Below, in pieces: positions 5,481-20,257 of a stretch of DNA of 64,000 nt; positions within the stretch are counted from its first letter, which is position 1, and every line of letters starts with the position of its first letter. The DNA comes from Murdochiella sp. Marseille-P8839 (GTDB lineage: Bacteria > Bacillota > Clostridia > Tissierellales > Peptoniphilaceae): positions 197,985 through 261,984 of the forward strand of contig JAIKLF010000002.1 in the NCBI GenBank assembly GCA_019753405.1, written 5' to 3'. Position numbers and translations under genes: made by a program. The notes below the pieces were generated by a model. It was not told the DNA's origin. It did not search any database and saw only the letters and a program-made list of their open reading frames with translations.

Positions 5481-8400
5481 ATGAAACGCCATAAGATACC
5501 CGTAGTCCTTGCAGGCATATTGATGCTGTTGACCATGTTTTGGGCAAAACCGGCCTTTGCAGGTGACGTTCAGGTTACGAACCTGACGGACCTTAAAGAT
5601 GCGATAGAGGAGGGTAATTCAGTTACCCTAATGAACGATATTGATGTAACGGAAGAATTGACATTTCCTGCTGGCTATCATGGCGAAATTTTTTCTTCTC
5701 ATAGTACTTTACGACTGGCTGATGGTGTCAACAATATGTTTGTTATACCGGACGGCACAAAGGTAACGTTTAATAGCCTTATCTTTGATGGACAGGAACA
5801 TGGGCGTATTATTGATGCCGGCGAAGCGAACGTGACGATTAAAAACTCAACCCTTAAAAACGCAACAACGGAGCCGTTTACACAGAAGATTGTCGACGAC
5901 AAGGATACGCAACGCTATGAAGGCGGTGCGATTTATGCGGCCCATACGACGTTGAATTTGGAAGATACCATTTTTGAAAAGAACCACACGAAAGCTGTAG
6001 TGCCGAGCCCAGGCGCACCGCATGGTGGCGCCATTGTTTCCTATTCGGCAAATATTAAAATAACCGGCGGCTCATTTAAAGGCAACTATACGGGGAAAGT
6101 GGATAAAGAAAAAGCTGCTCATGGTGAGGGTGGTGCGATCAAATTGCATCCGGGATCCACATTAACCATCAATGACGCCAATGTGACTACAAAAGACATG
6201 ACAGTTTTCGAAGGCAACCACTTAGATGCTTCCGGGGATGATGGCGGAAGACAAGGCGGCGCGATCGAAGCAACGCAGTCGACAGTATCTATCTACGGTA
6301 CTACTTTTCAAATTAAAGGCCCCTTTAACACGGGCGGCGCAATCAAATTTGAAAACTGCCAGGGAAGCCACAAAGCCGTTGTCGAGAATTGTAATTTTAC
6401 AATACTGCCAAACCAAGGTGATTGGGGATTTGGCGTTGCCGGCGGTGCGATAACATCAGAAGGATCTATCCTGTCAATTAATAAGTCTTCGTTTAATACG
6501 GGTGAGGGCACTCGAGTAGTTGAAGCAGGGGGGTTAATTCAAGTCGTTAAAGATGGTGAATTTAATCTTACTAACTCAACACTTACAGGATCCGGTGCGT
6601 GGTTTAATGGTAACAGACATACGGCCAATACCGGTGGAGCAATCTGCTTCTATGACGGATCGACAGTTACGGCAAATATTGAAAATACAACTATCAAAAA
6701 CTTTATGGTAGATGGTGCCGGTGCCGGAATATCGGTGGCGAAGGCTGCAGGTCATGAAGCCGAAGTCAAGTTGACCATGACAAATACTACTATCGAGAAC
6801 ACAGCTGCTTATGTTTGGCAGGGAACTGCACATGGCGGCGCGATGTTTGTAGGAAAAGGCAACACGGTAACGATTAATGGTGGAAAAATCTCTTCTCAGA
6901 CCGCATCAAACAATGCCGGCGGTATCTTTAATGAAGGTTCTGTTACGATCACAGGTAGCGATAAGGGCACTGCTCAGATAACCGGAAATGCTGCCTACCA
7001 AATGGTTGGTGGAATTTATAATGATGGATATCTGAAGATTGACAATGCTACCTTTAGTGGCAACAAAAAAGGTGACTGGTCTACCGGTGATGCACATGTA
7101 CTTGATAAAACTGAAATGGGCGGAATCAATATCTACGCGGATCAAGACGTTATTATTACCCCGGAAGCAAAATTTGACGAAAATGATATTCGTGTCCTGG
7201 ATGGGCAATCCAAGATCCTTTTGACCGGACCATTAAAGAACAAGATTAATGTTTCTATCAGTGAGAAGAAAAAAACGCACAGTGATCCAAAGAGCATTTT
7301 TGACCGCTATTCCGAGACACAGGAAAGATACATCGGCTATACAGTGGCAGGTGGAACAGAAGGCTACATGCCAACCGCTGCAGACGCCCAAAAAATCCAT
7401 TATGTATCAAAAGATGCAAGTCAGCCCATTGCAGCTGTCGATGATCATACGTCAATTGGAAAATGGGATTATGTATTTAATCCGGAAGCAAAGACCGTTG
7501 TTTTAGGCCAGCGTGCCAAGATGACATACCATGCGAATTATAATGATAAGAATGCAAAATTCGAGGATGGATCGAAGGAAAAAGAGCAACTTTACACCTT
7601 CTTTGGTTCCGGAAACGGTGAGCCCAAGGTTTCCGTGAATGACGTTGCCGTTACCTATCTGACCGAATTGGAAGAGAAGCCGGTTTCTAAGTGGATTTTT
7701 GACGGATGGTATAACCATACGCCAAAACAGCCGCCTGTTGACGACGCCGGATGTGCGGATTTCCGAAACACGAAGAAGAATAATAATGTTGCTGATTACA
7801 AGGTAAACTTTGCCGACGCCTATTTTACGAACACAGAGGCCAAGATTACTGCTATTGTTAACCCCAATGAGTTGCACGTCTATGCCGGTTGGAAGCCGCT
7901 CGAAATTAGATTGGAAAAAGTTTGGGAAGATGCAACGGCGAAAACAAAAGCACAGCAGGCTACAATAACCCTTACTTCCGATCCGGCGGGCACGAATGAA
8001 AGCTTTACTGCGGATAGAAATACGCTCACGAAGACATACGATGAACTGGACAAGTATCTCGAAGATGGTAAAACAGAAATCAGGTATACGGTGGATGAAC
8101 CCTCCGTTCCGGACGGTTATACCAAAACAGTTGTAGAGAAAGCAAGCAACGATGGTTCTGTTGTGAACTACTCGGTGACGAATACGAAGAAAGACAAACT
8201 CTACAAGGTTGTTCATGAATTTAAAGCAGCCGAGGGCATGACGGTTGCTTTACCGCAGGATATTAAAAATTGGACGCCGGCGGATCAAAACGATAAGACC
8301 GACGGAACAACAGTAAAACCGTCAGATTTTGCGAACAAAGCGTACAACGATACGGTTAATGACGGGAAATGGGAATTTGTATCTTGGAATAAGACGGAAG

Positions 8401-9128
8401 ATACGATAAATGGTGCCGACGTTAAATTTGTGGGAACATGGAAATTTACCAAGACACCACCGACGCCGCCGAAACCGAAAAAAATCAACATTCCGGTCCA
8501 AAAGGTTTGGAATGATCAGGACGACAAAGATAAAAAGCGTCCGATGGAAATCACCGTGCAGCTTCTTGCCAACGATCAACCGGTAGAAGGAAAGACCTTG
8601 CAGCTGACAGCAGGTAATCAGTGGACGGCCAGTTTTGAAGGCTTAGATGAGAAGCTTACAACGGGAACCGAGATTGTCTATACCGTCGAGGAGACTCCGG
8701 TTCCGAATGGTTATACGGCAAGCATTTCCGGTGATGCGAAGAACGGTTTCACAATCACAAATAGCTATACACCGAATCCGACCCCGAATCCGAATCCAAA
8801 CCCGGATCCGAACCCCAATCCGGATCCAAACCCCAATCCGGATCCGAATCCCAACCCGAATCCGAACCCGACGCCGGATCCGAAACCGAACCCGGAACCG
8901 AAGCCGAATCCGGAACCGAAGCCGACACCTGAGCCGACGCCGCAGCCGGAACCAACGCCGAATCCGACGCCGACACCAAAACCGGAACCGAAGCCGGAGC
9001 CAAAACCGATAGCGCCCCCGAAAAAACCGGAAGCGCCGAAAACTGGGGAGGAAATTCAGTTGGTAATGGGCACGGTAATGACGCTGCTGTCCGCAGGTGC
9101 ATATCTTGGAATGAAGAAGAAAAAATAA
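5481..9128 (+). CDS. Large cell-wall-anchored surface protein (beta-helix, Cna-B, SHIRT domains)
   Basis: 1215-residue secreted adhesin-like protein. A Sec signal peptide occupies residues 1-28 (cleavage after KPAFA). Residues about 40-600 are a right-handed beta-helix with many GGAI/GGAIxF turns typical of polymorphic outer-surface repeats. Residues about 680-805 resemble an InlB-type repeat (FDGWYN...VYAGWKP). A Cna-B domain covers 805-900 (LEKVWEDA, YTVDEPSVPDGY), a SHIRT-like domain 903-995 (GKWEFVSWNK, ADVKFVGTW), and a second Cna-B 1000-1095 (VQKVWNDQ, YTVEETPVPNGY). A Pro-rich NPNP/DPNP/PEPKP linker leads to APKTGEE (1185-1191), a hydrophobic helix and KKKK. The sorting motif has Ala where Leu is usual. 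AAAGGGGA precedes the start. Likely role: attachment to host or to other cells; the ligand is unknown. Confidence 0.88.
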   Translation: MKRHKIPVVLAGILMLLTMFWAKPAFAGDVQVTNLTDLKDAIEEGNSVTLMNDIDVTEELTFPAGYHGEIFSSHSTLRLADGVNNMFVIPDGTKVTFNSLIFDGQEHGRIIDAGEANVTIKNSTLKNATTEPFTQKIVDDKDTQRYEGGAIYAAHTTLNLEDTIFEKNHTKAVVPSPGAPHGGAIVSYSANIKITGGSFKGNYTGKVDKEKAAHGEGGAIKLHPGSTLTINDANVTTKDMTVFEGNHLDASGDDGGRQGGAIEATQSTVSIYGTTFQIKGPFNTGGAIKFENCQGSHKAVVENCNFTILPNQGDWGFGVAGGAITSEGSILSINKSSFNTGEGTRVVEAGGLIQVVKDGEFNLTNSTLTGSGAWFNGNRHTANTGGAICFYDGSTVTANIENTTIKNFMVDGAGAGISVAKAAGHEAEVKLTMTNTTIENTAAYVWQGTAHGGAMFVGKGNTVTINGGKISSQTASNNAGGIFNEGSVTITGSDKGTAQITGNAAYQMVGGIYNDGYLKIDNATFSGNKKGDWSTGDAHVLDKTEMGGINIYADQDVIITPEAKFDENDIRVLDGQSKILLTGPLKNKINVSISEKKKTHSDPKSIFDRYSETQERYIGYTVAGGTEGYMPTAADAQKIHYVSKDASQPIAAVDDHTSIGKWDYVFNPEAKTVVLGQRAKMTYHANYNDKNAKFEDGSKEKEQLYTFFGSGNGEPKVSVNDVAVTYLTELEEKPVSKWIFDGWYNHTPKQPPVDDAGCADFRNTKKNNNVADYKVNFADAYFTNTEAKITAIVNPNELHVYAGWKPLEIRLEKVWEDATAKTKAQQATITLTSDPAGTNESFTADRNTLTKTYDELDKYLEDGKTEIRYTVDEPSVPDGYTKTVVEKASNDGSVVNYSVTNTKKDKLYKVVHEFKAAEGMTVALPQDIKNWTPADQNDKTDGTTVKPSDFANKAYNDTVNDGKWEFVSWNKTEDTINGADVKFVGTWKFTKTPPTPPKPKKINIPVQKVWNDQDDKDKKRPMEITVQLLANDQPVEGKTLQLTAGNQWTASFEGLDEKLTTGTEIVYTVEETPVPNGYTASISGDAKNGFTITNSYTPNPTPNPNPNPDPNPNPDPNPNPDPNPNPNPNPTPDPKPNPEPKPNPEPKPTPEPTPQPEPTPNPTPTPKPEPKPEPKPIAPPKKPEAPKTGEEIQLVMGTVMTLLSAGAYLGMKKKK
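8773..9030 (+). repeat. Proline-rich coding repeat (NPNPDP / PEPKP)
   Basis: In-frame short tandem repeats of ccgaatcc/ccggatcc-type hexamers encode a NP/DP/EP/KP spacer across the wall-spanning part of the surface protein. Near-identical 18-base blocks (aacccggatccgaacccc and variants) are adjacent, so unit number could vary between strains by slippage. Confidence 0.8.
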
Positions 9129-9206: not shown

Positions 9207-9300
9207 TGGGAGCTAACCCTCTAAGGTCTGCTTGCGATAGGTCTTTTCAAGTGATCTTAATATTTAGCCCTGTAAATCTTTATTTTTATTGTGCGGAAAG

Positions 9301-9465
9301 TGGTGGTGATTTAACGAAAACGCCGTACCGCCACCATCGTTTTTGCCCTCGGCGATGGTGGTGATTTGGCGAAAATGCTATACCACCACCATCGTTTGTG
9401 CCTTTGACAGTGGTGGTGGTACGACGATAACGCACTTTCCTCACCATCGCTGCAATATGGAAATA
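9301..9465. repeat. Three-unit tandem repeat, period 55 bp, with internal dyads
   Basis: TGGTGGTG occurs at 9301, 9356 and 9411, spaced by exactly 55 bases, and the rest of each unit is similar (GAAAA-CGC/TGC centre, then ACC-CCACCATCG). Each unit contains an inverted repeat: TGGTGGT with ACCACCA in unit 2, with one G-T pair in unit 1 and a mismatch in unit 3. No open frame runs through it. It may be an array of binding sites or of RNA hairpins. Confidence 0.75.
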
Positions 9466-10103: not shown

Positions 10104-12527
10104 ATGCTTCTCGCACATAAAAATCAGAAGAGCGGAGCAGTTCAATCATTGGAAGAACATCTCCTGCATACGGCATCACTTTGTGCGGAATTGGGACGTG
10201 AAGTAGAGTTAGAGCACTTTTCCTTTTTGCTTGGACTTTTGCATGATTTTGGAAAACGCAGTAAAGCATTTCAACATAAAATACAAGAAAACACAAACGA
10301 TAAAGTGGTGCACTCAAATGAAGGGGCAACCATATTTTTCTTTTCTTGCCAAGATCTTGATATTATGAAGTTTGCAGAAAAAGATATTTGCCAAGCTTTT
10401 GTGGAAATTGGTTGCTATGTCATTACGGCGCATCATGGACTTTATGATATTCCAAAACAAGATAAAGAACAGCACTGGAGCAGTGCTGTTCTTTTACGTT
10501 CGTCGCGTGATAAAGAACACCCGAGCGAGGAAGCCATGCGTTTATTGCAAGACATTTATGTAAAGAGCGATTATGGCAAGACGGAGAGCTGGGATGCTTG
10601 TTTAACCCACGCACTGCGCGAATTTAAAGAAAAATATAGAATCCTTACAGAATTGGCAAAAAAATTTTCAACGGAAGACGAAGAAACGGCGTTATCTTTT
10701 TATTTAGGCCTTTTTGTTCGTCTGCTACTCTCTATACTGAAGCGCGCAGATGTTTTTGACACCATTAATGCCTTTGGCCCCATCATTCATAAAACGGAAG
10801 CAGATCCGGCATTATTTGAAAAGTATTCTTATCGTGTTGAAGAGCGTTATGCCCAATTTCCAAAACCGGAAAGTCCAATCAATAAGGCAAGGGCATTTAT
10901 CGCCTCTGAAGCGAAACGGAATGGACAAATTTTTCCTTCCGGTATTTATAAATTCAATGTGCCGACCGGAGCCGGCAAAACATTAGCTTCCTTGTCTTAT
11001 GCTGTGGAACAACTCCAACATTGCGAAAAAAAGAAAATGCTTTATGCGACAGCATTTCTTTCTGTGCTTGAACAAAATGCAGCTGAAATCCGTTCCGTTC
11101 TGGGGGAAGAAGGGGTTTTAGAACATCATTCGAACATTGTCGACGAACGACCTCATCAAGATGAAACGGAAGCTGAGAGCGTGGAAAATACGCAGGCGGA
11201 ATACCTGCTGAATACATGGGATGCACCGGTTGTTTTGACAACGATGGTACAATTTTTTAACACTTTACTGAAACAAAAAGCCTCTAATATTATGCGTTTT
11301 TCCAATCTGGCGAATAGCGTGATTATTTTAGATGAAGTCCAGTCGCTTCCTTTAGAAGTTACCTATCTGTTCAATTTGACATTAAACTTCTTAGCACATG
11401 TGATGCATTGTAATCTTGTGCTTTGTACAGCAACACAACCCTTATATAATGCAAAAGCGATAGCCCATCGGATGGCGTATCATTCACAAGAAAGCGAAGA
11501 AGAAATAGCCGTACTTTCCGAAGCACAACGCTTGAGTTTTAAACGCGTCCATATTTTAAAATTGAATGAGGAAAAAAGATTTCAAACATTGGATGATCTA
11601 TATGACTTTTTGCAAGAATGTGCAGACAAGTCCCGCCTGGTTATCGTAAATACTAAAAAAGCTGCACTCATGATATACAAAGCTGTGAAAGACATTTCTC
11701 CTGAAAACGCTTTTTATCTCAGTACCGATCTTTGCGCAGCACACCGTCATGACGTATTTCAAACGATGCATCAAAAGCTGAAGGAAAAAGAGCCTATTCT
11801 TTGTGTCAGCACACAGTTAATAGAGGCAGGGGTTGATGTGGACTTTGCCGTAGTCGTCCGCTCATTGGCAGGTATTGACTCCATTGTTCAAGCCGCGGGA
11901 CGGTGCAATCGCGAGGGAAAACGAGACAGTGGAGAGATGAAACTGATCAACCTGCCGAGCGGAATTGAAAATCTCAAATCGTTGGAATCGATCGAAAGAA
12001 AGAAAAGTATTACGAGGCAGCTTCTGTTTAAACAGAAGGGTGAATTGGATATTCTGCAATTCAATGACACATTTTTCAAGAAATACTTTAGCGAGGCTCC
12101 GATTGAAATGACGTATCCCTTAGAGAAGGAAAACAGCTCATTGCTGCAATGGCTTTCAAAAGGGAAAAATTACGGTCTTAATACATGCCTGCGACAGAGC
12201 TTCTTAGCGGCAGGAAGTGAATTTGCTTTAATTAAAGACGAGGCGAAACATGCCATCGTTTATTATCGAGATTCGGAACCCATGATAGAGGAACTGATAG
12301 AATTGGCGGCGAAATATGAAGAGAATTACGATGCCGAGTCATTATCACAACTTCGCTATTTACTAAAAAAGCTGCAGCTCTATACAGTTCCTGTGTATAA
12401 AAATGAGCTGCAGAAAGGGGCTTACTTGAGCTTGCTTCATGGACGTATATGGATTCTGCCAAAACCATACTACAAGCCTTTATATGGAAAAGCGCATGAC
12501 GAGGATGCGCAGGTACTTCTGTTGTGA
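10104..12527 (+). CDS. cas3: CRISPR-associated helicase/nuclease Cas3 (type I-C)
   Basis: Cas3 is recruited by Cascade to R-looped target DNA, nicks it and degrades it processively. The 807-residue protein has an N-terminal HD nuclease domain (EEHLLHTASLC, LLHDFGKRSKAFQ near residue 50, TAHHGLYD) and an SF2 helicase: Walker A PTGAGKT at 288-294, motif II DEVQ at 410-413, SLPLEVTYLF, ATQPLYN, motif V STQLIEAGVDVDF and motif VI AAGRCNREG. No truncation is seen. It is separated from cas5c by 170 bases that contain a palindrome, a crRNA-like element on the minus strand and the promoter of the rest of the operon, so cas3 is probably transcribed independently. Confidence 0.96.
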   Translation: MLLAHKNQKSGAVQSLEEHLLHTASLCAELGREVELEHFSFLLGLLHDFGKRSKAFQHKIQENTNDKVVHSNEGATIFFFSCQDLDIMKFAEKDICQAFVEIGCYVITAHHGLYDIPKQDKEQHWSSAVLLRSSRDKEHPSEEAMRLLQDIYVKSDYGKTESWDACLTHALREFKEKYRILTELAKKFSTEDEETALSFYLGLFVRLLLSILKRADVFDTINAFGPIIHKTEADPALFEKYSYRVEERYAQFPKPESPINKARAFIASEAKRNGQIFPSGIYKFNVPTGAGKTLASLSYAVEQLQHCEKKKMLYATAFLSVLEQNAAEIRSVLGEEGVLEHHSNIVDERPHQDETEAESVENTQAEYLLNTWDAPVVLTTMVQFFNTLLKQKASNIMRFSNLANSVIILDEVQSLPLEVTYLFNLTLNFLAHVMHCNLVLCTATQPLYNAKAIAHRMAYHSQESEEEIAVLSEAQRLSFKRVHILKLNEEKRFQTLDDLYDFLQECADKSRLVIVNTKKAALMIYKAVKDISPENAFYLSTDLCAAHRHDVFQTMHQKLKEKEPILCVSTQLIEAGVDVDFAVVVRSLAGIDSIVQAAGRCNREGKRDSGEMKLINLPSGIENLKSLESIERKKSITRQLLFKQKGELDILQFNDTFFKKYFSEAPIEMTYPLEKENSSLLQWLSKGKNYGLNTCLRQSFLAAGSEFALIKDEAKHAIVYYRDSEPMIEELIELAAKYEENYDAESLSQLRYLLKKLQLYTVPVYKNELQKGAYLSLLHGRIWILPKPYYKPLYGKAHDEDAQVLLL

Positions 12528-12556
12528 CGAAACTTATAGGAAAAAATTTCGTCACC
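12528..12556. promoter_or_regulatory. Hairpin at the cas3 3' end
   Basis: GTGACGAAA ... TTTCGTCAC forms a perfect 9-bp stem that begins within the cas3 stop region. There is no T-run, so termination would be weak in the + direction. On the minus strand the same hairpin lies directly after the crRNA-like element and could define or protect its 3' end. Confidence 0.5.
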
Positions 12557-12604
12557 CCAATCATATAATAAAAATTTCAATCCACATCGTCTAACGCGAT
12601 GATG
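12550..12604 (-). ncRNA. Predicted crRNA-like regulatory RNA (CreR-type) targeting the cas5c promoter
   Basis: On the minus strand the 12 bases GTGGATTGAAAT (12585 to 12574) are identical to the 3' end of the array repeat. They are preceded by a small hairpin (CATCG-CGTTAGA-CGATG) that ends exactly 11 bases before the spacer junction, as in the array repeat, so Cas5c could process it. The following bases (TTTTATTATATGATTGGGG...) act as a spacer: 11 contiguous matches, 15/16 and 17/21 overall, to the minus strand of the cas5c promoter (12671 down to 12651), next to TTC (complement of 12672-12674), the usual type I-C PAM. An extended -10 (TGGTAAAAT, 12617 to 12609) would start the RNA at the hairpin. 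Known CreR RNAs sit between cas genes and repress cas promoters through Cascade. Expression is inferred. Confidence 0.8.
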
Positions 12605-12631
12605 AATCATTTTACCACAAAAATGATTGAA
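12605..12631. promoter_or_regulatory. Inverted repeat between the crRNA-like element and the cas5c promoter
   Basis: AATCATTTT-accaca-AAAATGATT is a perfect 9-bp dyad. It overlaps the proposed extended -10 of the minus-strand crRNA-like RNA and could be an operator for it, or a weak terminator. Confidence 0.4.
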
Positions 12632-12639
12632 TTTGGTAC

Positions 12640-12667
12640 TTGAAAAATTTAAACACAATAATATAAT
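12640..12667 (+). promoter_or_regulatory. Promoter of the cas5c-cas8c-cas7c-cas4-cas1-cas2 operon
   Basis: TTGAAA (12640-12645) and a perfect TATAAT (12662-12667) with 16-base spacing. It is followed 20 bases later by AGGAGG and the cas5c start. The -10 box lies inside the segment matched by the crRNA-like spacer on the minus strand. Confidence 0.75.
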
Positions 12668-12697
12668 AAAAGAAAGATAAAAGAAAAGGAGGTAATA

Positions 12698-13429
12698 ATG
12701 GAACGTTCAAAAGATTTCTATATGCGCTTGTACGGAGACTATGCTCTCTTTACGGCGCCGGAATCAAAGGGCGGAGGGGAACGAATTTCGTATTCTGTTC
12801 CTACGCAACAAGCACTGCATGGCATCGTTGATGCCTGCTATTTCAAACCCACGATTCGAAATTGTGTGGAGGAAGTCAAAGTGATGCATCCCATTCGCAC
12901 ACACACGTTTGGCGTTCGAGCACTGTATAACAACGGCAAACCGGGCCTAAATTATGTAACAGCGCTTGAAAACGTCGAATACCTGGTGAAATTTCATTTT
13001 GAATGGAATCCGGCACGCCCAGACTTGGCCGGCGATCGTAACATGAAAAAGCACGAAGCCATTGTTGAAAGAAGCTTACGCCACGGTGGGAGAAGAGATG
13101 TTTTTTTAGGCGCCAGGGAATTTGTCGGAAACATTGAAGCACTGGACGAAGCAAGCTACCACGAAGCACAGTCTTTTTATGATGGACAAACGATTCACTT
13201 TGGGATTATGTTTCAATGCTTTGAATATCCTGAAGAATCAGGAGGAGCTTTACAGTCTTATTTTGCTCCGATCGTTATGGAAAATGGGATTATTCATTGG
13301 AAACCCAAGGAAGAATGTCCGATTCATAATACGCTGTCTGGCTATACTTTCCGAACCGCCAACGCGGTTAAAAGTGCCGAAGAGGAATGGAATGCGATGA
13401 CCGCGTTTTTTAAAGAGGGGCGATTATGA
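12698..13429 (+). CDS. cas5c: Type I-C Cas5 (pre-crRNA endoribonuclease)
   Basis: In type I-C systems, which lack Cas6, Cas5c (Cas5d) cuts the pre-crRNA at the 3' base of the repeat hairpin, stays bound to the 11-nt 5' handle and joins Cascade. The 243-residue protein starts with the ferredoxin-like fold (MRLYGDYALFTAPESKGGGE, YSVPTQQALHGIVDACY), as in the family, and shows conserved FGVRALYNNGKPG and FLGAREFVGNIEAL segments. An AAGGAGG site precedes ATG 12698. It overlaps cas8c by 4 bases (ATGA). Confidence 0.94.
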   Translation: MERSKDFYMRLYGDYALFTAPESKGGGERISYSVPTQQALHGIVDACYFKPTIRNCVEEVKVMHPIRTHTFGVRALYNNGKPGLNYVTALENVEYLVKFHFEWNPARPDLAGDRNMKKHEAIVERSLRHGGRRDVFLGAREFVGNIEALDEASYHEAQSFYDGQTIHFGIMFQCFEYPEESGGALQSYFAPIVMENGIIHWKPKEECPIHNTLSGYTFRTANAVKSAEEEWNAMTAFFKEGRL

Positions 13430-15372
13430 GCGTATTCACCGATTTATATAAAGCCTACGAACAAGCCGAACAGGAAGGATTGGTAGATAACCGAAAAGAA
13501 ATGGTTAAAGTTCTACCCATCTATCACGCTTCGATGACGGTTCGGGATGATAAGTCTACCAGCCCTAAAGTTCTGCAAGTCATTTTAAGCGATGATGCAG
13601 AAGTAATCGATGCCATGTTTGCTACGCCGATGACAACTCTGATTTTTCCTGTCACTCGAGATTCGGTTGCCCGTTCCGGATCAAATCCGCCGCCACATCC
13701 TTTGACGGACAAACTATCCTATGTTTTAGCGGGTAGCGATGAAGAAAAACATGAAGCATATCTTGATATCTTACAGCAATTTTACGAACATGCAGATGAT
13801 GAAAAGGTACAGCACTTTTTAAAAATCATCTTGATGTTCGCACGCAAGCCGGATGCTCTCGATGAAATTCTTCCCTGCCTATTTGCTACGTATGAAGTAC
13901 ATGAGGGGACGAAAGGCAAAGGATTAGACATCATAGATACTTCAGAGGAAAAAGCGAAATCTTACAACTCGGAAAGCATTTTTGTTGAATTTGCTGTTTC
14001 ATCTTTGGAGGAGGAACGCACCCTTTCTGTCACAAACTATGTTGAACTGCATCGAGCCTATATTCGTTACTATGAAAAACAGGCGAAGCAGGAGGATATG
14101 GGAGTATGTAATATCAGCGGTGAATATCAGGAGCTTACGGACAAACACCGTGGCCTTCTGGGAAACGCCAAATTAATTTCTGTCAGCAATTCCAAAGAAA
14201 CCTATTTTGGTCGCTTCCAAAAGGGCTCGGATATCTTGCGCGTCGGCAGGGAAACTTCAGAAAAAATCCATTTGGCACTTAAGTTTTTTCTCGAGAACCC
14301 CAAGTCTTCTCTTTGGCTGGGAGAACAACAGTTCCTTATCAATTGGTTTACGGATGACTTCACCAATGAACGTGATTTTAAAGTAACAGCTCAAGATAAT
14401 CCCGAAGCCTTTACCGGAAAAGAAGGTGAAGAAAATATCAAAAGAGAAATTATTACCGATCAAAATGCCGAGTTTACCAAATCTTATTTGATAGGGAAAT
14501 CCACACTGGATCCGGACAATTACTATACTGCCATGATCTTAGACAAGGCAAGTAATGGACGTATTTCGATCAAATATTATACAAGGGTACGCACGAGCCA
14601 GCTCATCGATCGTCTATGCCAATGGCAGACCGATTATTCATGGAAAAAATACAATGCCAAGGAGAAGAAATGGGTCATTGCTAGTCCTCCGCATCTTCAG
14701 TTGATATATACCGCTTACGGTATTGAACGTGATGAAATGTTGCAGGTTGATAAGGACTCTTATTTAAAGGACCTCAATCGAAAGCTCATAGTCAATATGC
14801 TGGAGGGGCGTGGCATCAACAAAGGAATGATTCAAGCTTTAAAACTCAATATTCGGCAACGCTTAAAGTACGCCAATTACAAAAACTGGCGCCAGGTACT
14901 TTATGTTGCACTGGCAGTTTTAAGCAAAGGGCACAAGGAGGAATGGTATATGAGACCAGCAGAAAAACAGTCCTATTCCTATCTGTATGGGAGGTTGCTC
15001 GCCATTTATGAGATGACAGAAGCCAGTCTGTACAGTATGGATACGAAAGAAGCAAACGCGGCAAATCCTGGGGGCGAAACAAAAAAATCGAATTATCGTC
15101 TGACCAATGCGGAAAGACTGTGGACTGCCTATGTTAATGCCCCATTCAGCACGCTGAAGCTATTGGACACCAAAACAAAAGTATACGAAAGAAAACTCAA
15201 AACCGATCATCCGGGGATGCTCATCAAATTGCAGAAACAGAAGGATGAAATCTTTCGTTTATTAGATCCGATCCAAGAGAAGGCTCAAAATCCGAATAAA
15301 GCATTGGATTCCGAATTTATTTTTGGTTACCAGGCACAAAAAGCAGCACTGTACGCTAAGGAGGAAAAGTAA
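13426..15372 (+). CDS. cas8c: Type I-C Cascade large subunit Cas8c (Csd1)
   Basis: Csd1/Cas8c is the PAM-reading large subunit of type I-C Cascade. The 648-residue length and the start (FTDLYKAYEQAEQEGLV, LPIYHASMTVRD) fit the family, as do CNISGEYQELTDKHRG and the internal SNSKETYFGRFQ stretch. The C-terminal helical part (LWTAYVNAPFSTLKLLD), which provides the small-subunit-like function by internal translation in some systems, is intact. It is coupled on both sides (ATGA with cas5c; one-base overlap with cas7c). Confidence 0.93.
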   Translation: MSVFTDLYKAYEQAEQEGLVDNRKEMVKVLPIYHASMTVRDDKSTSPKVLQVILSDDAEVIDAMFATPMTTLIFPVTRDSVARSGSNPPPHPLTDKLSYVLAGSDEEKHEAYLDILQQFYEHADDEKVQHFLKIILMFARKPDALDEILPCLFATYEVHEGTKGKGLDIIDTSEEKAKSYNSESIFVEFAVSSLEEERTLSVTNYVELHRAYIRYYEKQAKQEDMGVCNISGEYQELTDKHRGLLGNAKLISVSNSKETYFGRFQKGSDILRVGRETSEKIHLALKFFLENPKSSLWLGEQQFLINWFTDDFTNERDFKVTAQDNPEAFTGKEGEENIKREIITDQNAEFTKSYLIGKSTLDPDNYYTAMILDKASNGRISIKYYTRVRTSQLIDRLCQWQTDYSWKKYNAKEKKWVIASPPHLQLIYTAYGIERDEMLQVDKDSYLKDLNRKLIVNMLEGRGINKGMIQALKLNIRQRLKYANYKNWRQVLYVALAVLSKGHKEEWYMRPAEKQSYSYLYGRLLAIYEMTEASLYSMDTKEANAANPGGETKKSNYRLTNAERLWTAYVNAPFSTLKLLDTKTKVYERKLKTDHPGMLIKLQKQKDEIFRLLDPIQEKAQNPNKALDSEFIFGYQAQKAALYAKEEK

Positions 15373-16208
15373 TGAACAAAGTAGATTTTATTGTAACTGT
15401 CGTCGTAAGAAATGCTAACCCTAATGGTGATCCACTTGCGGGAAACATGCCACGAACAGATTCTTTCGGCTATGGCGAGATCTCTGATGTTTGCATTAAA
15501 AGAAAAATACGAAACCGCTATCAGGACTTTGGCAATGATATTTTTGTAAAAGCAAAGGAACGTATTGATGACGACTGTGATTCTTTAGAAAAACGTTATA
15601 AAAAACACTTTAAGTCAAGTGATTCAGATGAGGATATTGAAAAAGGATTCAATGAAAAATGGATTGATGTTCGAGCCTTTGGACAAGTAATAACATATGT
15701 TAGTAAGTCGATTGGTATTCGTGGTGCTGTTTCTATCGGTATGGCTAAATCATTACGTCCTATAGAAATATCAAGCCTTCAAATTACCAAGAGCACAAAC
15801 GGAATGGATAAAGGAAAGAATGGAAAATCAAAAGATACTATGGGTATGAAGCACTCGGTCGATTTTGGCGTATATGTCTTTAATGGTGCCATTAATTCGT
15901 ATTTTGCTGATAAAACTGGCTTTTCAAAAGAGGATAAAGAACAGTTGAAAGAGGCCTTGCGTACATTATTTGTCAACGATGCATCTTCTGCCCGTCCGGA
16001 CGGCTCGATGGAAGTTAAAGACATCTATTGGTTTGAGCATTCCTGTCCAATCGGCGATGTATCCAGCGCAAAAATTCGAGAACTGCTGGAATATGAAGAG
16101 AATGCCACGGCAAAAAATTATGAGGATTATCAGATTCATCTTAACGAAGAAAAGCTGCACGAATACGAGGAGAAGGGATTGCGCTGCGAAAAAATTGAGG
16201 GCATCTGA
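15372..16208 (+). CDS. cas7c: Type I-C Cascade backbone subunit Cas7c (Csd2)
   Basis: Cas7c polymerises along the crRNA spacer to form the Cascade backbone. The 278-residue protein shows the family start VDFIVTVVVRNANPNGDPLAG, DVCIKRKIRNRYQDFG, WIDVRAFGQVITY and the typical GAVSIGMAKSLRPIEI core. The MKHSVDFGVYVFNGAINSYF strand and the C-terminal DASSARPDGSMEVKDIYWFE complete it. Its base composition is noticeably AT-richer than the flanking housekeeping genes, as for the whole locus, consistent with horizontal origin. Confidence 0.95.
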   Translation: MNKVDFIVTVVVRNANPNGDPLAGNMPRTDSFGYGEISDVCIKRKIRNRYQDFGNDIFVKAKERIDDDCDSLEKRYKKHFKSSDSDEDIEKGFNEKWIDVRAFGQVITYVSKSIGIRGAVSIGMAKSLRPIEISSLQITKSTNGMDKGKNGKSKDTMGMKHSVDFGVYVFNGAINSYFADKTGFSKEDKEQLKEALRTLFVNDASSARPDGSMEVKDIYWFEHSCPIGDVSSAKIRELLEYEENATAKNYEDYQIHLNEEKLHEYEEKGLRCEKIEGI

Positions 16209-16210
16209 TC

Positions 16211-16897
16211 ATGTATGCTGAGGATCAGTTCCTAATGCTTAGCGGCATTCAGCACTTTTTCTTCTGTAAAAGGCAATGGGCATTGATACATCTGGAACAA
16301 CAATGGGCAGAAAACTACAGTACTGCTGAAGGCGAAATTCTTCATGAACGCGCCGATAAACCAATGCTACATGAAAAGCGCGGGGATATTTTTTATTCCC
16401 GCGCCATGCCTGTTTCTTCGGCTACTCTCGGGCTATCCGGGATTCTGGATGTCGTCCTATTTGAAAAAGACGAGGCAGGCATTTCACTCCCGCATCACAG
16501 AGGCAAATGGCGCCCTTATGTGATCGAATACAAACGTGGTAAGGAGAAACCCGATAATCGGGATAGAGTTCAATTGGGCGCAGAAGTAATGTGCCTAGAA
16601 GAGAAGCTTGGCATCGCTATAGATGCGTCGTATTTATACTATTTTAAAACGAATCGTCGTATCAATATTCCTATTGATCTTGCTTTACGCGAAGAGGTAA
16701 GGCAGCTGGCAAAAGAGATGCATGATGCATATGCATCAGGGAAAACTCCGGTGGCAGGATTTTATAAACATTGTGCATTGTGCTCATTAAGAGATGTTTG
16801 TCTGCCACGACTCACGAAGAAAAAACGATCCGTTTATAATTATTTATACGGAGTAGATAATGAAGAAGCTGTTGAACACGTTATTTGTGACACATGA
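16211..16897 (+). CDS. cas4: CRISPR-associated exonuclease Cas4
   Basis: RecB-family Fe-S nuclease that works with Cas1-Cas2 to select PAM-flanked prespacers and orient their integration. The 228-residue protein has the N-terminal Cys in FFFCKRQWALIHLEQQW, the nuclease residues in GILDVVLFE and YVIEYKRGK (the D and ExK signature), QLGAEVMCLEE (QxxxY-like helix region) and the C-terminal Cys cluster HCALCSLRDVCLPRL for the iron-sulphur cluster. Its 3' end overlaps cas1 by 38 bases, where cas1 has its own ribosome site. Confidence 0.94.
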   Translation: MYAEDQFLMLSGIQHFFFCKRQWALIHLEQQWAENYSTAEGEILHERADKPMLHEKRGDIFYSRAMPVSSATLGLSGILDVVLFEKDEAGISLPHHRGKWRPYVIEYKRGKEKPDNRDRVQLGAEVMCLEEKLGIAIDASYLYYFKTNRRINIPIDLALREEVRQLAKEMHDAYASGKTPVAGFYKHCALCSLRDVCLPRLTKKKRSVYNYLYGVDNEEAVEHVICDT

Positions 16898-17891
16898 GGA
16901 TGCCTATCTATCTAAAGAAGGTGAAAATGTCGTCATTCGAGCGGATAAGATAACGCTGGGACGATTCCCGATTCATATTTTAGAGTCAATCCTTTGCTTT
17001 TCATATGTTGGAATGTCTCCGGCTTTAATGAAATTGTGCAATGAGCATCATGTGTTGGTGAGTTTCCTCACTCCGCAGGGACGTTTTTGTGCACGGCTCG
17101 TTGGCGTTGAAAATGGAAATGTGCTTTTACGACGTCAACAGTACCGCCTTGCGGATAAAGACGCGGCTATTGAGTATGTTCGTAATATCGTATATGCAAA
17201 GGGGCTGAACTCCAAAAGAGTGCTGGCACGCACGCTTCGTGACAATGCAGAAGATGTTGATACGGCGCGAATACAAGTGGTAATGCAAGAAATTGATAGC
17301 GCCTTAGAACGCATCAAAAACGCAGGAAGTATCGATTCGTTACGGGGAGAAGAGGGGCTAATGGCTAAGCACTATTTTGATGTTTTTGACGAGATGATTC
17401 TACAGCAAAGAAAAGATTTCTATTTTGTGGGGCGTAACCGCCGCCCACCGCAAGATCCCGTCAACGCTCTACTGTCTTTCTTTTATACGTTACTCTGTCA
17501 GGACTGTATGAGCGGTTTGGAAGCGGTTGGTTTGGATCCTTACGTTGGATTTTTGCATGTGGATCGCCCGGGTAGAGTTTCTCTTGCTTTGGATTTGATG
17601 GAGGAATTGCGCGCTTTTATTTGTGATAGATCCGTACTGTCCATGATCAACTTAAAAATCATTTCAATGAAAGACTTTGAGTTCAAAGAAAATGGAGCTG
17701 TCTTACTAAAGGAGAGAAGCCGCAATAAGGCTCTTGCGTATTGGCAAAAACAAAAACAAATTGAAATCACGCATCCCTTTTTACAAGAAAAAATTCAAAG
17801 AGGCCTTTTACCCTATGTGCAAGCGATGCTATTGAGTCGTACAATACGAGGAGACCTAGAAAGCTATCCTCCTTTTGTAATGCGTGCTTAG
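16860..17891 (+). CDS. cas1: CRISPR integrase Cas1
   Basis: Cas1 is the spacer-acquisition integrase. The 343-residue protein begins LNTLFVTHEDAYLSKEGENVV (type I-C style) and contains the catalytic segment with Glu in FYFVGRNRRPPQDPVNALLSF, then His in VGFLHVDRPGRVSLALDLMEE (HxxxxGRxSLxxDLxE). GGAG lies upstream of ATG 16860, inside cas4. Transcription with cas4 and cas2 is implied by overlap and a 9-base gap to cas2. Confidence 0.96.
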   Translation: MKKLLNTLFVTHEDAYLSKEGENVVIRADKITLGRFPIHILESILCFSYVGMSPALMKLCNEHHVLVSFLTPQGRFCARLVGVENGNVLLRRQQYRLADKDAAIEYVRNIVYAKGLNSKRVLARTLRDNAEDVDTARIQVVMQEIDSALERIKNAGSIDSLRGEEGLMAKHYFDVFDEMILQQRKDFYFVGRNRRPPQDPVNALLSFFYTLLCQDCMSGLEAVGLDPYVGFLHVDRPGRVSLALDLMEELRAFICDRSVLSMINLKIISMKDFEFKENGAVLLKERSRNKALAYWQKQKQIEITHPFLQEKIQRGLLPYVQAMLLSRTIRGDLESYPPFVMRA

Positions 17892-17900
17892 GAGGCAAAT

Positions 17901-18194
17901 ATGTGGGTTTTGATCACTTATGACGTCAACACAAAAAGTCCGACGGGCGAAAAAAGACTTCGTCAAGTAGCAAAAGCGTGTGTCAACTATGGCCAGAGAG
18001 TGCAGAACTCCGTTTTTGAGTGTAGTGTGACGCCGGCTCAGTTTCGTCTTATTCAAGACAAACTGTCTAAGATCATTGACAAAGAAAAGGATAGTGTCCG
18101 TTTTTATCGCTTGGGCAAAGAAGGCGATCGGAGAATCTCATCGATGGGGAAGAACGATACCTATAACCCGGATAAGGACCTCCTACTCATGTAA
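17901..18194 (+). CDS. cas2: CRISPR adaptation protein Cas2
   Basis: 97-residue ferredoxin-fold partner of Cas1 in the integrase complex. It begins with the classic strand MWVLITYDVNTKSP carrying the conserved Asp, continues with KACVNYGQRVQNSVFECSVT and ends DRRISSMGKN...LLM as in the type I-C subgroup. TAGGAGG precedes ATG 17901. The array leader starts directly after its stop codon. Confidence 0.96.
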   Translation: MWVLITYDVNTKSPTGEKRLRQVAKACVNYGQRVQNSVFECSVTPAQFRLIQDKLSKIIDKEKDSVRFYRLGKEGDRRISSMGKNDTYNPDKDLLLM

Positions 18195-18317: not shown

Positions 18318-18950
18318 GTCGCGCCCTTCAGGGGCGCGTGGATTGAAATATCGTGACCGACACTTTTGTCTTTCGTCCTTCTCCCGGTCGCGCCCTTCAG
18401 GGGCGCGTGGATTGAAATGCCTGTAAGGCTTGTTTCGCATCCATCGTCATGCTGTCGCGCCCTTCAGGGGCGCGTGGATTGAAATTTTTCTGTCCGAACC
18501 ATCAGCTGTTTTCCCCAGGTCGCGCCCTTCAGGGGCGCGTGGATTGAAATCATGATATATACCGCAACTCGCCCGGCAGAGCTTTTAGTCGCGCCCTTCA
18601 GGGGCGCGTGGATTGAAATGTTTTTGGCCATCCGTTAAGGCCTGCTCGTTTGAGTCGCGCCCTTCACGGGCGCGTGGATTGAAATTCTGTCCCCTTCGGG
18701 TACTTGTACTCGCTTGTAGGTCGCGCCCTTCACGGGCGCGTGGATTGAAATCCTTACCATTACGGACCTGCAGGACCTTATGGCAAGTCGCGCCCTTCAC
18801 GGGCGCGTGGATTGAAATCTGCACCTCTTTAATTGACCAGCCTGCTTCAAAGGTCGCGCCCTTCACGGGCGCGTGGATTGAAATATAGAGCGCATCGCCT
18901 ATCGCTTTTGCAAGATCAGTCGCGCCCTTCACGGGCGCGTGGATTGAAAT
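18318..18950 (+). CRISPR. Type I-C CRISPR array, 10 repeats of 32 bp
   Basis: Ten 32-base repeats start at 18318, 18387, 18454, 18519, 18588, 18654, 18720, 18787, 18853 and 18919. Each reads GTCGCGCCC-TTCAg/c-GGGCGCG-TGGATTGAAAT, i.e. a 7-bp stem, 5-base loop and 11-base handle. Nine internal spacers measure 37, 35, 33, 37, 34, 34, 35, 34 and 34 bases. Repeats 1-5 have G at the last loop base and repeats 6-10 have C; the stem is unaffected. After repeat 10 there are 32 further spacer-like bases and then only GTCGCG before unrelated coding sequence. The leader is on the cas2 side. Spacer targets could not be determined here. Confidence 0.98.
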
Positions 18951-20095: not shown

Positions 20096-20257
20096 CGTCA
20101 ATCATGGAAATAAAATATCGCTAAATACGGCAACTAAAATTCGCCAACCATGGTAATAAAGAACCGCCAACCATGGCAATACAGAACCGCCAATCGTGGT
20201 AATAGAAGACCGCCAATCATGGTAATGATTTTTTGCCAATCGTGGTAATTTTATTGA
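20096..20257. repeat. Seven tandem 23-bp repeats upstream of the ATPase gene
   Basis: Units begin with CGYCAA (or variant) at 20096, 20119, 20142, 20165, 20188, 20211 and 20234, so the period is exactly 23 bases throughout. The consensus is CGCCAAyCATGGTAATArAG plus three bases; units 3 and 4 contain the palindrome CCATGG. Unit 2 is degenerate. An inverted-sense TGGCGAAATTT follows at 20262. The array ends about 60 bases before the ATPase start, where the promoter should be, so binding of a protein to an iteron-like operator is the simplest reading. The remaining bases of this 309-base intergenic region hold only the ddaH terminator. Confidence 0.85.

Follow-up and report, generated by a model that had tools for sequence, protein, structure and literature searches.

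The window analysed here, a stretch of 64,000 nucleotides from Murdochiella sp. Marseille-P8839, carries a CRISPR-Cas locus that is assigned to type I-C because Cas5c, Cas8c and Cas7c all exceed their curated cut-offs (TIGR01876, TIGR01863 and TIGR02589). On the plus strand, cas3 (10104..12527) is followed by cas5c, cas8c and cas7c (12698..16208, with cas5c at 12698-13429), which form the Cascade operon, then by cas4, cas1 and cas2 (16211..18194) and by an array with ten 32-nt repeats (18318..18950). A gene for a surface-type protein of 1,215 residues (5481-9128), with an 18-base repeat tract near its end, adjoins the cas locus, and short direct repeats occur at 20096-20239 (23-base spacing) and 9296-9449 (55-base spacing). 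Between cas3 and cas5c, on the opposite (minus) strand, lies a guide element whose putative repression target is the Cascade operon.

The guide element and its target

Read from the sequence, the element is a one-repeat guide gene (minus strand, 12617-12558) composed of an extended -10, a hairpin, a type I-C handle and a guide. The extended -10, TGGTAAAAT (12609..12617), predicts a transcription start near 12602, and a -10-like hexamer stands at a comparable distance in many relatives, though not in all. The repeat-derived hairpin CATCG-CGTTAGA-CGATG (12585..12601) has a 5-bp stem with arms at 12601-12597 and 12589-12585, and this stem stops exactly at the start of the 11-nt 5' handle TGGATTGAAAT (12574..12584), which is identical to the end of the array repeat; the predicted Cas5c cut falls at the handle boundary, 12585/12584. 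The promoter-like extended -10 and the hairpin are the only features of RNA production seen at the element. The guide itself occupies 12557..12573 (positions 1-17). Its RNA could end at a 12-bp hairpin that begins at guide position 19 (12524..12555) and has no T-run behind it or, farther downstream, at a terminator-like stem with a T-run (12492..12510). A search of 12400-12800 against Rfam returned no family.

The original prediction had singled out this lone repeat end, and direct reading bears out both its coordinates and the placement of the hairpin: the minus-strand 12-mer GTGGATTGAAAT (12585-12574) is identical to the last 12 bases of the array repeat. It has 11 copies in the 1,676,217-base genome, ten in the array and one in the guide element, while the reversed 12-mer pattern, used as a control, has none. 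A repeat-derived handle is accordingly found outside the array and inside the cas locus, as in CreR RNAs.

Read from 12671 downwards, the minus strand agrees with the guide at 11 of the first 11 bases, 15 of 16 and 17 of 21, figures that were reproduced as first given; position 6 is paired and position 12 is mismatched. The target (12656..12671) is preceded by the PAM TTC (12672..12674) and covers the -10 box of the predicted cas5c promoter (12640..12667, plus strand), in which TTGAAA (12640-12645) and TATAAT (12662-12667) are separated by 16 nt and score 11/12. The TTC together with the 11-base seed has a single genomic copy, which lies at the cas5c promoter. The proposed protospacer is thereby confirmed, and with it a limited, PAM-adjacent match of the guide to its own cas promoter, which is a further mark of CreR.

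The position of the target bears on a different reading, in which the element serves as antitoxin guide in an addiction module and the targeted promoter drives a toxin instead of the cas operon. Such CreTA and CrePA modules have in common with the element one or two ectopic degenerate repeats and Cascade-guided promoter repression but, as described in the parts of PMC9458426 and PMC12737573 that deal with them, they target a toxin, whereas the guide of Murdochiella targets the cas5c promoter. The same guide layout does target a promoter before a small hydrophobic frame at four Streptococcus loci (L042-L045, see below). In Murdochiella, however, the PAM at 12674 is separated from the cas5c ATG (12698) by 23 bases that contain the ribosome site. 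Since these leave no space for another gene, the toxin expected of a CreTA or CrePA module has no room before cas5c, and a toxin output at this locus was rejected as very improbable.

Relatives of the element and co-variation with the target

Relatives were sought around Cas5c matches, which were found in 26 of 130 family genomes, 30 of 249 order genomes and 33 of 398 genomes drawn from the phylum (overlapping sets), and an alignment-based scan of named genomes gave 42 loci, including those of Anaerococcus, Peptoniphilus, Urinicoccus, Fenollaria, Streptococcus, Enterococcus and Trichococcus. Within Murdochiella itself, the four other genomes searched gave no Cas5c match, so that all comparisons are with loci outside the genus. 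After removal of same-contig repeats, 84 type I-C loci were available. Each was examined over at most -4500 to +200 around cas5c; the examination started from -1500 in 15 family loci, and the bases available upstream numbered 186, 2,250 and 44 in L055, L112 and L150. Left out were 13 named-genome loci on contigs already in the family-genome set, the shorter versions of loci that were used at greater length, L031, which duplicates L081, and fragments in G196 (L039) and G473; L150, with its 44 upstream bases, was omitted from the tree.

A scan of other I-C loci for isolated handles had been suggested with the original prediction, and it succeeded. Isolated handles of the form G[TC]GGATTGAAA occur 41 times near cas5c in the 84 loci, and in 37 of these elements the guide has a matching site, flanked by TTN, no more than 700 bases away. 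The same test is passed by 5 of 2,220 random guide starts and by 11 of 2,698 starts shifted by 4-40 bases. The four handles for which no match was found within 700 bases are those of L117, L137 and L144 (at -2590, -2660 and -159), which may guard other targets, and the second handle of L119 (G642). The latter belongs to a second lone repeat at -98 before cas5c, on the plus and hence sense strand within the cas5c leader, and its spacer has no match nearby.

The Cas5c tree has 83 rows, of which 37 carry the element and 46, by the criteria used and within the stretches examined, lack it. Carriers are clustered: the tree shows 17 changes, compared with an average of 27 after shuffling, and in one well-supported group 27 of 34 rows have the element. 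The position of the target differs between groups: 19-75 bases upstream of cas5c in 15 family loci (L009-L030), about 80 bases upstream of it in the Streptococcus loci L049, L050, L051, L053, L054 and L055, and directly upstream of a reading frame of the 800-residue class in L048, L072, L073, L078, L120 and L142. This frame is Cas3 in all three loci tested (L048, L072 and L078). In L127 (G315), where the element region spans -3295 to -2823 before cas5c, the guide target is a promoter-like site before an 85-residue frame upstream of the element. The lone repeat of L043, about -480 before cas5c, comes close to a complete array repeat (GTCGCACTCCTCACGAGTGCGTGGATTGAAAT), and its stem differs from that of the array repeat by one paired change, as if recently derived. 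In Fenollaria massiliensis (L031/L081), cas5c is split in two and the stretch that holds the guide-gene promoter in the sister locus L017 is missing; this locus looks decayed.

The hairpin is weak by itself. The best fold of the naked guide RNA is a shifted hairpin that captures handle bases, the canonical stem reaching -3.7 kcal/mol, whereas the short piece in its best fold reaches -4.9 kcal/mol and the array repeat -14.6 kcal/mol. Across the relatives, a perfect stem of at least 3 pairs (G-T allowed) adjoins the 11-nt handle in 36 of the 37 elements and one of at least 4 pairs in 32, compared with about 43% and about 21% in shuffled sequence. Twelve different outer stems are found; their outer three pairs form in 12/12 cases with their own arms, a figure partly built in because stems were found by pairing, and in 14/132 with swapped arms.

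The pairing of guide and target was studied in 31 loci chosen by handle and match, with positions 6 and 12 excluded from the score. When the site was chosen anew on all 16 positions, the same site was retained in 30 of the 31, and the count of 37 among 41 starts from the handle alone. Six further elements (L114, L119, L120, L125, L127 and L142) were picked on the read positions and are kept outside the position table.

The 31 loci have 24 distinct guides, and each guide finds its match within its own locus, next to TTC or TTT and mostly just before cas5c or cas3. The match extends to at least 13 of 15 read positions in 29 loci (L023 being counted at its TAC site). With guides placed on swapped loci, a score of 13 is attained in 17 of 900 trials and never exceeded, and shuffled guides reach at least 13 in 20 of 3,100. 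In 15 hand-chosen pairs of related loci, 48 read positions have changed on both sides and are still paired, against 11 other changes; positions 6 and 12 of the same pairs show 2 paired double changes against 14 others. An example is provided by L044 and L045: their Cas5c proteins are nearly identical, but 11 of 14 read positions are different between the two loci, in guide and target alike. Guides that failed to vary with the promoter in related I-C loci had been named as evidence against the prediction; what is found is conservation of the element with joint change of guide and promoter, as in CreR.

This maintenance of pairing also decides against a relic, that is, a functionless degenerate repeat or a self-derived spacer. 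Absence of the element from 46 of the 83 tree loci and the decayed appearance of L031/L081, with its cas5c in two pieces, would fit such an origin. Stem arms and guide-target pairs nevertheless stay paired despite changes of letters, and a self-derived spacer would be expected to match over about 33-35 bases as opposed to the 16 seen here. The relic reading was rejected on the strength of the maintained pairing and deserves very little credence.

Skipped guide positions and probable pairing within Cascade

A feature absent from the original prediction emerged from the position table. Mismatches at guide positions 1-18 over the 31 loci number 0, 0, 0, 1, 0, 21, 0, 2, 0, 0, 0, 26, 5, 1, 3, 8, 13 and 21. 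Position 6 is thus mismatched in 21 of the 31 loci and position 12 in 26, while positions 1-5 and 7-11 together have 3 mismatches in 310, and the pattern persists when sites are selected on all 16 positions. The PAM is TTC in 28 loci and TTT in 2; in L023, the site flanked by TAC has the longer match and the site flanked by TTC the full seed.

These observations weigh on the possibility that the element acts as an ordinary antisense or regulatory RNA with no need of Cascade for its pairing, a reading for which the short complementarity near a gene start could be invoked. The match, however, covers the -10 box and for the most part precedes the predicted start, a TTC or TTT is needed alongside it, and a mark at positions 6 and 12 is not known to us from any antisense RNA or transcription-factor site. 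Cascade flips out every sixth base, as described for type I-E (PMC5965380), and positions 6 and 12 correspond to such bases. Since these two positions are skipped, the sequence by itself speaks for an R-loop rather than for antisense pairing, and judged by this evidence the skipping is the evolutionary footprint of Cascade pairing. Cascade-free pairing, rejected on account of the two skipped positions and the flanking TTC or TTT, is highly improbable.

The chance that the element is a Cascade-inhibiting repeat mimic akin to the RNA anti-CRISPR Racr is practically negligible, and this identity was rejected: Racrs are likewise solitary repeat units engaging Cas proteins, with one tested I-C case, but the portion of PMC10651486 that presents them describes inhibitors encoded by phages and plasmids, whereas the element lies in a cellular cas locus, the bases that follow it are constrained by their pairing, and an exact scan of viral contigs with a 27-base stretch of it gave no match.

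Proposed autoregulation and its place among known systems

The element is very probably a CreR-type RNA by which the I-C Cascade would repress its own operon without cutting by Cas3. This was the substance of the original prediction, which is supported by the features of the locus that are typical of CreR and by the outcome of the co-variation analysis. That the predicted repression would depend on the effector finds indirect support in the skipped positions. As the guides of relatives each match their own locus, the element likely lets the CRISPR machinery lower its own production. Transcription of the minus strand would start near 12602, and cleavage by Cas5c at the foot of the hairpin would generate the 11-nt handle. 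Cascade loaded with this guide would then occupy the site that adjoins TTC and covers the -10 box, and would block RNA polymerase, the approximately 16-17 paired bases being presumably insufficient to license Cas3. If array crRNAs abound, or if Cascade is in short supply or blocked, the guide would no longer obtain its share of Cascade and repression of the operon would be lifted.

Several reports are consistent with this scheme. In E. coli, limited PAM-proximal pairing allows Cascade to bind, while interference requires at least 18-25 bp (PMC5904413). Type I-C Cascade directed at a -10 element beside TTC represses the target gene, and TTC and TTT both serve as I-C PAMs, according to the relevant passages of PMC10865793. 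In a type I-C system, self-killing required 27 bp (PMC8406640); because the match between guide and target fades at base 16-17, short of this length, repression is expected here rather than cutting. A T-tailed terminator-like stem begins at guide position 16-18 in 10 of the 37 elements, and the RNAs of these 10 probably end there.

CreR has been reviewed as shown for types I-B, I-E and V-A (PMC13131331). Of the subtypes named with the original prediction (I-A, I-B, I-F and V-A), I-B and V-A agree with the relevant part of this review, which has I-E in place of I-A and I-F. The features shared with CreR are a repeat-derived RNA outside the array, a limited match to a cas promoter and a predicted self-repression by the effector (PMC13131331, PMC12737573, PMC12948488). 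The Murdochiella case differs from CreR, as presented in the sections of these sources that describe it, in belonging to type I-C, in which crRNA is made by Cas5c and not by Cas6, and in the single repeat of the I-C elements, with a terminator that begins at guide base 16-18 in some relatives. The one-repeat, Cas5c-dependent I-C form would be a variant of CreR. A literature search yielded no report that was recognised as an I-C CreR; two primary surveys lay beyond its reach, and absence from print is not implied. Shmakov et al. (2023, NAR 51:8150) reportedly predicted crRNA-like elements in type I and V-A systems, namely standalone repeats that resemble the present one in their partial match to cas promoters. 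The long-form tracrRNA is also said to repress the cas promoter of Cas9 by means of a built-in guide, in this case in a type II system.

A second output may exist in the family. At L042-L045 (Streptococcus catagoni, S. pseudoporcinus, S. suis 614 and S. plurextorum), the guide-targeted promoter is followed, before cas5c, by a hydrophobic frame of about 33-37 residues, which is alike within L042/L043 and within L044/L045 and has a terminator-like stem behind it in L042/L043. These loci look like a small peptide gene guarded by a guide, according to the logic of CreTA and CrePA, within an I-C cas locus. A Pfam search of five small reading frames, including those of L042-L045 and the 85-residue frame of L127, returned no family. 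The chances are even, in our estimation, that the elements constitute a Bacillota-wide family of I-C one-repeat guides, with about 17 used bases, reading steps of 5 bases with bases 6 and 12 skipped, often a hairpin or terminator behind the guide, and two outputs switched in the course of evolution. On this same even estimate, one output would be self-repression of the cas operon, in Murdochiella, in most elements of its family and in several Streptococcus, and the other, in L042-L045, the guarding of a gene within the cas locus that encodes a small hydrophobic peptide. If this is true, these four loci would contain an addiction module of type I-C.

Type I-C ranks with the most common CRISPR subtypes, and its minimal Cascade relies on Cas5c itself to produce the crRNA. 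The finding provides a rule by which similar guides can be searched, namely a lone handle, a TTC and a match at positions 1-5, 7-11 and 13-16. The predicted repressor guide would control the operon that encodes its own processing enzyme, which makes testable how type I-C systems balance the supply of Cas proteins against array crRNAs and anti-CRISPRs.
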